From contig JAKSYS010000810.1 of assembly GCA_022925895.1 (NCBI GenBank), positions 1 through 23,064 on the forward strand: DNA of 23,064 nt, written 5' to 3'. Positions 1,927 through 21,260 of the stretch are shown here, in pieces. This DNA is from Fragilaria crotonensis (Eukaryota; Bacillariophyta; Fragilariophyceae; Fragilariales; Fragilariaceae). The first letter of the stretch is position 1. The number at the start of each line of letters is the position of its first letter. The position numbers were made by a program, and so were the translations under genes. Below the pieces are notes generated by a model. That model saw only the letters and a program-made list of their open reading frames with translations, made no database searches and was not told the DNA's origin.

Positions 1927-4309
1927 ATGAAGCTTTCTACTAGCATTGTCTTGTTGTCCTTGGTCGCCACAGGAACTGACGGCTTTGGCGTTCAAAGGGG
2001 TCAGGTGTCGATGCGCATCGGACATTACGACATGGTCCGTCGTCAGAAGTTCAACAAACTCCTCACCAAGGTCGAAGAAAGTCCCACGAAGGAGACTGTC
2101 GCTACTGTTCTTTTGACCCCTGAGACCAGTGATCTCATCGAAAAGTGTAACTGGAAGTTGCGCAACACGATGATTCGCAAGGTGACGGCTATTGCACGAG
2201 CAAACGGTGCCGACGTTGATGCCTCGTTTGGTGTTCGGTAAGTTCGATGTTTAGATAACGTTGATGTTGATCTGGTACACTCTTTGGCATTGCAACTCAT
2301 TGCTTCTTAATGACTGGCATAGGCCATCACAGAGCGAAAAGGAGCTCATTGACCAAGCGAGAAAAGTTGAAACATTAGCAGCACGTGCAGCCAAGAGAGA
2401 AGCTGAACAAGCAGCTGCGAAGGCTCTGGCAGAAACGAAGGCCAAGAATAAAGCCGCCCGGAGTAAGTGAAACCTGTGCTTTCTTTTTATCCGTCCTGGC
2501 TCGTACCGTGTCTTACATCTGCTGTCGTTTTCAGTTGAAAAGACCAAAGAGGCGCTCGCACGTGCAGCAGAAGCGAAAAAGATCGCATCTCCTCCTGCAC
2601 CGGTGCCAGTTGCCGTTGCCGAACCGGAGCCCATTGCCGTTGTAGAGCCGGAGCCAGTTGCTGTTGTGGAACCGGAGCCTGTTGCTGTTGTGGAACCGGA
2701 GCCAGTTACCGTCGCTGAACCGGAGCCAGTTGCCGTTGCCGAACCAGAGCCTGTTGCTGTTGTGGAACCGGAGGCAGTTGCCGTTGCTGAACCGGAGCCA
2801 GTTGCCGTTGCTGAACCGGAGCCAGTTGCCGTTGTGGAACCTGAGCCAGTTGCCGTTGCTGAACCGGAGCCGGTTGCCGTTGCTGAACCGGAGCCAGTTG
2901 CCGTTGTGGAACCTGAGCCTGTTGCCGTTGTGGAACCTGAGCCTGTTGCCGTTGCTGAACCGGAGCCAGTTGCCGTTGCTGAACCGGAGCCAGTTGCCGT
3001 CGCTGAACCGGAGCCAGTTACCGTCGCTGAACCGGAGCCAGTTGCCGTTGCCGAACCAGAGCCAGTTGCCGTTGCCGAACCAGAGCCAGTTGCTGTTGCT
3101 GAACCGGAGCCAGTTGCCGTTGCTGAACCGGAGCCAGTTGCCGTTGTGGAACCTGAGCCAGTTGCCGTTGTGGAACCTGAGCCTGTTGCCGTTGTGGAAC
3201 CTGAGCCAGTTGCCGTTGCTGAACCGGAGCCGGTTGCCGTTGCTGAACCGGAGCCAGTTGCCGTTGCTGAACCGGAGCCAGTTGCCGTCGCTGAACCGGA
3301 GCCAGTTGCCGTCGCTGAACCGGAGCCAGTTGCCGTTGCCGAACCAGAGCCAGTTGCCGTTGCCGAACCAGAGCCAGTTGCCGTTGCCGTTGCCGAACCC
3401 ACGCCTGCAGCCGCTACACCTGCTGCTTCCGGCGGAGACATCACACCTAAGAGAATCAAAGAGCTCCGAGATGCCACTGGTGCCGGAATGATGGACTGCA
3501 AGAAGGCACTCATCGATTCTGACGGCGACATGGAAGCTGCCACAGAAGTTCTTCGCGCCAAGGGTCTCGCCAAGGCCGACAAGAAGGCTAGCCGCATCGC
3601 CGCTGAAGGAAAGATCGCGGGTGCTACTTCGGGTAGCAAGGCAGTACTTGTCGAAATCAACTGTGAGACTGACTTTGTCGCGAAAGATGCATCCTTCATG
3701 GAATTCACCAAGGGAGTTGCCAATGCCGCACTGGCCGTTGGTGGAGATAATGTTGAAGAGCTGTTGGGTGTCAGCGTAGATGGCTCTACAGTTGAAGAAA
3801 CTCGCCAAGCCCTCGTTGCAAAGATTGGAGAAAATATCCAGGTTCGCCGTCTTGTCGGACGTGGAGGTGGCGATACCACAGTCGGCGCGTACGTCCACAT
3901 GAACCGCATTGGAGTTCTTGTGGAAATTGAGGGAGGAACCCCTGAACTAGCTGAAGATGTTGCCATGCATGTTGCTGCCATGAACCCGCCATTCGCCAGG
4001 CCAGAAGATGTTTCCCAAGAAGTTTTGGATAAGGAGCGCGACTTCCTTACACAACAAGCATTGGACTCTGGAAAACCGAAAGAGATTGTTGAGAAGATGA
4101 TTGAGGGCCGAATTCGCAAATACCTGGAGGAAATCTGTCTGGTTTCCCAAACCTATGTGAAGACTAACGACAAAACAGTTGGAAAGCTGTTGGAAGAGAA
4201 CGGTGCCAAGATGGTCGGCTTCACTAGAATTGAAGTCGGTGAGGGCCTTGAAAAGAGACAGGACGATTTTGCCGCCGAGGTTGCGAAGATGGCTTCTGGC
4301 GGAGTTTAG
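1927..4309 (+). CDS. Plastid translation elongation factor Ts with octapeptide repeat array
   Basis: EF-Ts is the nucleotide-exchange factor that recycles EF-Tu-GDP to EF-Tu-GTP, here in the plastid. Three exons are read as 1927-2237, 2323-2462 and 2535-4309. The introns are GTAAGT...TAG (85 nt) and GTAAGT...CAG (72 nt), and both restore frame, giving 741 residues. Residues 1-20 are a signal peptide ending TDG|FG, a plastid-import motif. Residues about 30-103 are conserved-looking but unassigned. Residues 104-175 are Ala/Lys/Glu-rich and probably helical. Residues 176-431 are 32 copies of VAV(A/V)EPEP. Residues 453-741 are a complete EF-Ts: the UBA-like start [20 protein letters not shown], the EF-Tu-contact motif TDFV (529-532), and the core and dimerisation regions. 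There is no S1 domain like that of the green-algal PSRP-7/EF-Ts polyprotein. The EF-Ts call is very firm; the job of the repeat linker is unknown. Confidence 0.95.
2609..3376 (+). repeat. 24-bp coding minisatellite, 32 units
   Basis: Thirty-two head-to-tail 24-bp units encode [16 protein letters not shown] and rare variants ([24 protein letters not shown]). A partial unit, [10 protein letters not shown], follows. Synonymous variants recur in the same order, for example GTC-GCT units followed by GCC-GAA-CCA units, in three successive blocks. This shows that multi-unit blocks were duplicated as well as single units. Because 24 is divisible by three, gains and losses keep the frame. Confidence 0.97.
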
Positions 4310-19365: not shown

Positions 19366-19822
19366 CTAACAGTTGGGGCAGAAGTGCAACTCCACAACCG
19401 CTCCAGAATAAGGGACGAACACATCCAACTTCATCACATTCCTCTTGTTCGCAATAACACGCTGCACAGCGTTATCTCCAAGGCCCTTGTAGGTAAAGGT
19501 TTCCACCTTTCCGTCCTGGTACGTGAAGACAAGCCTCTGCAAATTGGTGCCTGGAATGTCCAACAACGCAATGTCAGAAAACAAGACTGGTTGAGTGAAT
19601 GTGAACGTCATGGTTCCACCTGTAGCATTGTCGTCTGGAGTGGTTTTATTGCTCTCTTGAATAATCAAGACATCTGTAAGTACATGACACGCAGGCAGGG
19701 TGAGTTTCAGGATTGTGGTGAACGGGCTCAACGAGTATAGTACGTGATCTTACTTCCGAGGGGCTTGCAGTTCTCCCCAAGTTTGCCTGGAATTCCGTTT
19801 TTGCCCACACCTGGTCCACCAC

Positions 19823-19830
19823 CTGGACAG
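19823..19830. repeat. Left 8-bp target-site duplication
   Basis: CTGGACAG directly abuts the left inverted repeat and is repeated at 20279-20286. Keeping just one copy restores the host reading frame. Confidence 0.92.
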
Positions 19831-20278
19831 CAGTGCATGACATCTGAGATAAAAACGGCACCCGAAGCCGCAGCCGGCCGATTTTTTGCAGAGGCTTTTG
19901 GCCGCAGCCGGCCGTATGCCGATATGTGAGCCCGGCCGTACCCGTCTGCAGTCCGACAGTCCCTGCCCGCACAGGGCCGCAGCCGGACTGTCACTGCCCG
20001 TACCCGTACCCGGCCGCAGTCGTAAGGAAGTACAGTACATACTATAAACATAGTACACAGTACTGTACTGACAGTACGTTGTCAGCAACCACCGTACCCG
20101 TGAAAAATGACAGGTGTGATCCGCCCTTTACCCGGGATTGGCCAAAAAGTGATAGGAATCGACCGGAGCCGGCCGGAACCGGCCGGGACCTAAATACACG
20201 GACCGCAGCCGCCCGAAATCACGGCCGGCCCGCGATTTCCGGCCGGCTGCGGCTAACGGGCCCCGATGTCATGCACTG
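19831..20278. mobile_element. Non-autonomous hAT-like transposon (MITE)
   Basis: A 448-bp element with perfect 14-bp terminal inverted repeats: CAGTGCATGACATC at 19831-19844 and its complement at 20265-20278. It is flanked by the 8-bp direct repeat CTGGACAG (19823-19830 and 20279-20286). The TIR start CAGTG fits the hAT consensus YARNG, and the duplication fits the Ac-family pattern nTnnnnAn. The interior is GC-rich with several GCCGCAGCCGGCCG words near both ends (19867, 19901 and, inverted, 20240), like hAT subterminal transposase-binding repeats. There is no transposase ORF, so mobility would need a partner element elsewhere. Confidence 0.9.
19867..20253. repeat. Subterminal GCCGCAGCCGGCCG words of the hAT-like element
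   Basis: Exact 14-bp copies lie at 19867-19880 and 19901-19914 in direct orientation and at 20240-20253 inverted. Shorter relatives lie between. They sit near both ends of the element, where hAT transposases commonly bind. Confidence 0.75.
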
Positions 20279-20286
20279 CTGGACAG
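20279..20286. repeat. Right 8-bp target-site duplication
   Basis: CTGGACAG directly follows the right inverted repeat and is identical to the left copy at 19823-19830. Confidence 0.92.
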
Positions 20287-21260
20287 GCGGAGTTGGGACT
20301 AGTACCCAAATCGGGGTCTCCGTTTTCCAGGGTTCCAGGGTTTGAAGTGTCGAAAACACGAGCCATGTTGTTAGGGCTATAACCGCCAGTTGCGGTGACC
20401 GTCAGGCCGTACTTGTTGAACCACTCATTTTTTACATACGCGCCCCGAGCGAGGACTGTTCCGTCTCCTTCCGTAGAGAAGTCGATTGTCACACAGGTTG
20501 GACACTTCGATTGACTGAGGCTTACAAATAATGTGCCGAGATTCGTTGAGTCCAAGAACCCGGGCCCGTCGCTAATGGGACATTGTGTACTCAAGATTTG
20601 TGCCAATGATGACCCACTGATGATGACGTCAATGATTGGATTGACTCCAAGGCAGCCAGGGTACAAAGGAACAAGTTCTTTTGCAAAGGCTGCCTCCAAC
20701 GTCGCTTCCATCTGTGGTTTGAAGGTATTTGTAAACCATGCGCTAACAAGACCCCTGTGCCCGTCATTGGCTTCACCCCCTTTACCATTGTTACATAGCA
20801 CTCTCTTATCCCCATTATCAGCTGAGCACATTCCTCGGCGGCAACCCCCGATGCCTCTCCACATAAACCGGGACACTCGCAGGCGGCGCCTCGTTGCAGA
20901 TGTGGGAGCTGGGCATACACCAGCAATGTATGCTGCATCGTCATAAGCACCTGCATCACCAACACCGTAGTTCAACAAGATGGTATTTATGTCGTGTCCA
21001 AGTAAGAGTTGGTCAGCCAGCCTGCAGGATTGTGTCAGCAAATTCTGAGGAGTTATCGATACGGTGATGTCAAAGAAATCTACCACTCCCGGATCCAGTG
21101 CACACACCACTGCCGCGGTTCGTCCTCGGGACGATTGCATCAACTGCTCAGTAAAGTTTTGTTGAACGATATGCTTGACATGGTACCTGGTACCTGGTAC
21201 TTGTACCCAAACAAATGCTCCATGATGCGACTCGTTTATCTGGTCGCTGGTCATGGCCAT

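Follow-up and report, generated by a model that had tools for sequence, protein, structure and literature searches.

A probable hAT-type family of miniature elements in the diatom Fragilaria crotonensis, one copy of which interrupts a coding exon

The window analyzed here is the whole 23,064-nucleotide stretch of Fragilaria crotonensis DNA, in which a coding exon of a minus-strand gene is interrupted by a short element with intact edges (Table 1). Read in order across 19823-20286, the interruption consists of CTGGACAG, CAGTGCATGACATC, 420 bp of interior, GATGTCATGCACTG, and CTGGACAG again. The element proper is 448 bp long; the 464 bp given in an earlier note on this DNA counts both duplications. 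That note had described the 14-bp terminal inverted repeats (TIRs) and the 8-bp duplication as perfect, and the letters agree: the right TIR is the exact reverse complement of the left one, and the two flanking copies of CTGGACAG are identical at 8/8 positions. The TIR length falls within the 10-25 bp short-TIR criterion for hAT elements. No other pair of perfect 14-bp inverted repeats less than 700 bp apart in the whole window has an exact 8-bp duplication at its flanks; shuffling the window 20 times by mononucleotide produced no such pair. BLAST edges that reach as far as 3 bp into both duplication copies (CAG...CTG) suggested a reading with 17-bp repeats and a 2-bp duplication, which we rejected because many duplications simply end in AG and the copy edges give 8 bp. 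Elsewhere in the window, an open frame at 2603-4309 on the plus strand has a long tandem repeat at its start and presumably resembles elongation factor Ts.

Table 1. Positions of the interrupted gene and of the inserted element within the window
Feature	Position	Strand	Remarks
Host gene, last exon to stop codon	19366..19673	-	After TTACAG acceptor
Host gene, remainder of interrupted exon, GGGPGVGKNGIPGKLGENCKPLG	19754..19822	-	Ends ahead of GTAAG donor
Target site duplication, left copy, CTGGACAG	19823..19830	no strand	Identical to right copy at 8/8 positions
Non-autonomous hAT element (MITE; very probable), 448 bp	19831..20278	+	Oriented like the full-length C146 relative
Left TIR, CAGTGCATGACATC	19831..19844	+	
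Left subterminal repeats, CCGCAGCCGGCCG	19867..19914	+	Element offsets 37 and 71, matching C146 element offsets
Right subterminal repeats, CCGCAGCCGGCCG motif, up to 1 mismatch	20163..20252	both orientations	
Right TIR	20265..20278	-	
Target site duplication, right copy	20279..20286	no strand	
Host gene, coding part upstream of insertion	20280..21260	-	327 codons used as query; start putative

The host reading frame enters the element and stops there (SACPAVHDIGAR*, with AVHDIGAR as the residues before the stop). Because translation would go 8 codons beyond the insertion point and then end, the window allele most likely makes a truncated protein that lacks what the last exon and the remainder of the interrupted one encode. 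With the element and one duplication taken out, SACP and GGGPGVG become contiguous in frame, just as the earlier note had said. For any exonic insertion such rejoining is automatic arithmetic; here it counts as evidence because a paralogue on contig C25 (C25:90264-91171) reads KCPGGGPGIG uninterrupted at the same place, and two more distant relatives, on C34 and C267, align across the insertion site in one piece. The C25 paralogue and the window gene share 78% amino-acid identity over 266 residues, with a dN/dS of 0.20 over 404 codons. The first piece of the host protein matched no Pfam family, and the second gave a match below the cut-off only (E 0.09). In the C25 paralogue (L093, L099) itself, the reading frame is shifted by a length difference of 8 nt. 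We weighed an excision footprint as its origin, but no duplicated 8-mer could be found by eye; given that absence, and three extra codons that the C34 and C267 relatives carry nearby, we prefer either a 9-nt indel with a subsequent loss of 1 nt or an error of assembly.

We searched the organism's own genome (62.1 Mb in 881 contigs) for further copies, with the best 40 of 48 candidates scored. That the host is a diatom is supported by the rbcL gene of this genome, on C881, whose best matches are the Rubisco structures 7yk5, 5n9z, 5mz2, 5oya, and 6ftl, which are diatom enzymes. Whether other copies exist had been set beforehand as a test of the earlier note, and it did not refute the note: at least 43 matches to the element were found, the window copy and some fragments included. 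Queries made from the ends of a full-length element described below added five more places with similar ends (on C146, C876, C614, C666, and C405). Over the element and both end searches combined, the copy number is modest, at about 45 places as a lower bound. Among the 40 sequences inspected (the window and 39 other loci), both ends are present in 36, and an end is missing in the other four (L072, L075, L076, L077). When independence was judged by 40-bp flanks, the 36 two-ended copies reduced to 20 independent insertion sites, and all 20 carry identical 8-bp duplications, 19 of them recognized automatically and one (L053) after skipping 4 extra bp at the right end. Together with the duplication of the full-length element on C146, these target sites have T at position 2 in 17/21 cases and A at position 7 in 19/21, which is the nTnnnnAn pattern of the Hermes/Ac type.

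Sixteen of the 36 two-ended copies (the L041 group) represent one insertion within a larger repeat; they have the duplication GTGTGCAG and flanks that are 88-99.6% identical over ~0.8 kb on each side. In one example of this larger repeat (L103; C521:1500-9500), we saw neither direct nor inverted repeats that reach 40 bp, and the five open frames searched out of nine listed gave no Pfam match. L054 (C49) and L055 (C68) are a single site on two contigs, with flanks 99.9-100% identical, and are perhaps two haplotypes retained in the assembly. At L057 (C433:18498-20547), family members adjoin one another, one apparently inserted into another; L070 (C108:524761-526994) is a 632-bp copy, against about 446 bp, with ~186 extra bases inside; and at L073 (C183:37644-39676) the element lies in or beside a dispersed repeat whose 47-residue reading recurs at dozens of places. 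The family right end (23 bases, exact) had no match in viral contigs.

The same genome contains what the earlier note had proposed looking for, a full-length relative with a hAT transposase. This element occupies 9,752 bp on contig C146 (C146:41745-51496), starts with CAGTGCATGACAT, finishes with GATGTCATGCACTG, and is flanked on both sides by CTTCGGAG, its own 8-bp duplication. The right 110 bp of the short element are 95% identical to it and the left 176 bp 78% identical. Within the C146 element, the 13-mer CCGCAGCCGGCCG (up to one mismatch) is confined to ~230 bp at each end. Four of the five places of this motif in the short element lie at the C146 element's offset from the nearer end; on the right side, the distance from the right end is equal in the two elements for 2/3 repeats. 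The window element retains both ends of a full-length hAT element, subterminal repeats included, but lacks the interior; being non-coding, 448 bp long, multi-copy, and alike in its ends to the C146 element, it has what characterizes a miniature inverted-repeat element (MITE).

A 780-codon open frame in the C146 element matches Dimer_Tnp_hAT (PF05699, E 1e-16) and DBD_Tnp_Hermes (PF10683, E 6e-7). Hermes is its best solved relative (structures E 6e-35), and their alignment pairs an aspartate (LDIWTD/IDLWTD) and a glutamate (SKSECNFSDAG/SAASERTFSLAG), positions that we take to be Hermes catalytic residues. The profile match and the Hermes relationship make the Ac group a candidate placement for this transposase. 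There are 31 hAT dimerisation-domain matches in the genome, with transposases down to ~31% identity with that of C146. We examined 12 of these 31, each with flanks of up to 1.5 kb, and the terminal repeat (up to one mismatch) was absent from the 11 loci other than C146. Among the best 40 candidates of each of the two end searches, no full-length element was closer than C146. Given an identity of just 78% at the left end, we call the C146 element a relative, and at most a candidate for the source or mobilizing copy; it is a good candidate source of transposase, and its transposase probably moves the MITE copies.

Inside the C146 element lies a tandem array (C146:45970-50907; L090/L091) made of ~187-bp units in 375-bp pairs and ~4.9 kb long, which is non-coding (the longest open frame listed within it has 81 codons). 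Largely because of this array, the C146 element, with its 9.75 kb, exceeds the 2.5-5 kb that the available text of PMC3942097 gives for hAT elements. A search for related arrays, in which 47 rows from the best 40 of 42 candidates were merged into 39 array loci, placed 8/39 loci less than 5 kb from a hAT-domain match, against ~0.19 expected by chance (39 loci, 30 hit contigs); because the C146 array is included by construction, we take the count as 7/38. The nearness of related arrays to other hAT transposase genes exceeds chance. Four of the seven, on C656, C324, C417, and C465, have similar spacing and may be one element type. For the array on C237, one 1.9-kb flank is without similarity to C146, the other shares a single 194-bp match besides array units, and no transposase was seen in the open frames of these flanks. 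A bold reading of the association would be that a diatom hAT lineage carries and spreads a ~187-bp satellite as a regular internal part. Since tandem repeats within DNA transposons are already known (PMC8101967, PMC9659126, as far as their available text goes), we treat the association as a lead and claim no new mechanism.

The copies differ in apparent age. Five of them (L043, L044, L046, L047, L048), each at a site of its own, show no difference over 446 bp, and because of this identity the family appears to have moved recently; L049 and L052 each have one indel relative to these five, and L039 equals L040 in sequence. The window copy is closest to L039/L040, from which it is 8 substitutions and 2 indels away, and by these 8 substitutions it is older and not among the youngest copies. 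It has 33 substitutions relative to the majority sequence common to the youngest copies, which are mostly a subfamily difference. The earlier note had taken the intact edges as pointing to a recent insertion of a possibly still mobile family. The first part does not follow from the edges, given the differences between the window copy and its nearest copies; the second finds support in the five identical copies, from which we infer family activity. In a search with 17 other sites as joined empty sites in one query (best 40 of 114 candidates scored), insertion-free related repeats were found for two of the sites, L040 (on C195 and C174) and L074 (on C434, C824, C777, C406, and C389), and none among those 40 for the remaining 15.

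We consider it very probable that the window element is a non-autonomous hAT transposon, a MITE with the Hermes/Ac-type target rule. The C146 element shares its ends and its kind of subterminal repeat, and the family shows 8-bp duplications of the nTnnnnAn pattern at multiple sites; what the earlier note had called hAT-like from one locus now has behind it the duplications of 20 sites, their pattern, and a full-length relative encoding a hAT transposase. A transposase like that of C146 would bind the subterminal and terminal repeats of the MITE in trans, excise it, and insert it at nTnnnnAn sites between cuts staggered by 8 bp, and one such event would have placed the MITE in an exon of the minus-strand gene. 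Superfamilies other than hAT also produce 8-bp duplications, and the 31 hAT-domain matches of the genome include transposases well diverged from that of C146; an element of another such superfamily, or a Buster/Tip-type hAT, moved by a different transposase has to be considered. We regard this as very improbable: the terminal and subterminal sequence of the MITE matches the C146 hAT element directly, the terminal repeat occurred at C146 alone among the 12 of 31 loci examined, and the target pattern is nTnnnnAn. A further reading, which can be compatible with a hAT MITE, is that the insertion entered one of two duplicates, a host gene decaying or dispensable beforehand, and rides along there as a near-neutral passenger. 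The paralogue on C25, at 78% identity, favors it, but beyond the insertion no stop or frameshift was seen in those coding pieces of the window copy that we read, the dN/dS of 0.20 between the two genes speaks against it, and the frame-shifting 8-nt difference belongs to the paralogue and not to the window copy; we hold it to be possible and rather unlikely.

The insertion could alternatively act as a new spliceosomal intron, with the host transcript spliced across it and a near-complete protein made. Splicing would then use gene-strand sites near opposite ends of the element, TTTTTATCTCAG as acceptor and GTTAGC as a weak donor; alternatively, the nTnnnnAn target would often itself supply GT and AG. 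In-frame, stop-free splice choices are indeed present on the gene strand, but they are numerous (at least 15 listed), and the existence of one means little. The top-scoring choice, whose donor CCC|GTTAGC (20257) and acceptor TTTTTATCTCAG| (end at 19844) both lie inside the element, would add 42 nt, but its donor, the best available, matches the consensus at just 5/9 positions; a choice within the duplications alone would remove 462 nt and lose 2 residues. GT....AG occurs on one strand in 8/21 duplications, against 4.3 expected with columns shuffled (p 0.016, uncorrected), but the window duplication is not among the eight. Precedent exists in introners: in the available text of PMC9860276, those of Aureococcus with an 8-bp duplication supply both splice sites themselves, adding 12 nt, and those of Florenciella co-opt both sites. 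Against a general role of this sort, 1/20 sites is clearly genic by open frame, namely that of the window. Open frames of 127-244 codons also run across L049, L053, L065, and L073, but the frame at L065 is a simple repeat by eye, Pfam gave nothing above the cut-off for those at L049, L053, and L073 (L049 has one match below it), and L073 is part of a dispersed repeat with 49 genomic matches. Codon scores were 4.5 for L073 (lower coding range), 2.2 for L039, 1.6 for L049, and -0.1 for the window site, with the other 16/20 below -1, where the 90th percentile of shuffled coding sequence is -0.1; the score is unhelpful and weak as evidence because it is low even at the window's own coding site. 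An intron-like role of the window insertion is little supported, and we think it improbable that this hAT MITE is spliced from the host transcript; the birth of an intron at a diatom hAT insertion is equally doubtful.

The interpretation we retain, a hAT MITE in a host exon, describes a known kind of element in a family that we did not find described, as far as the searched literature goes. The 14-mer terminal sequence was absent from that literature, and the family from the accessible part of the diatom hAT and MITE literature, to which Repbase and most subscription journals do not belong; for the diatom Cyclotella cryptica, hAT is among the superfamilies listed in the available text of PMC7466962. 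What is gained is a MITE system in a diatom genome that combines identical burst copies, an older exonic insertion, an uninterrupted paralogue, and a full-length relative. An open transposase frame and a mini-element make a two-part mobility test possible, and an insertional mutagenesis tool for diatoms is conceivable; apart from those uses, this is ordinary hAT biology.

For Hermes, the available text of PMC10368747 gives the target rule nTnnnnAn, the binding of subterminal repeats by the BED domains of the transposase, and a requirement in cells for ~220 bp of each end. The present family resembles Hermes and other Ac-type hAT elements in its 8-bp nTnnnnAn duplications, short TIRs, and subterminal repeats, and its C146 relative does so in the Hermes DNA-binding and hAT dimerisation domains of the transposase; it differs in its terminal sequence, CAGTGCATGACATC, in its GC-rich subterminal motif, CCGCAGCCGGCCG, and in the ~4.9-kb internal satellite array of the full-length element. 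With the algal introners as the accessible text of PMC9860276 describes them, it has in common a non-autonomous structure, terminal repeats, an 8-bp duplication, and a position inside a coding exon, whereas a single one of its 20 sites is clearly genic and splicing of it would be conjectural. Further parallels, likened by description and not by sequence, are mar, a hAT MITE family of Drosophila (PMC3517528, from its available text), and BniHAT-1/2, hAT MITE families of Brassica nigra (PMC7385995, likewise): like these, the window MITE is short, non-coding, and hAT-related, and unlike them it belongs to a diatom and has a modest copy number.
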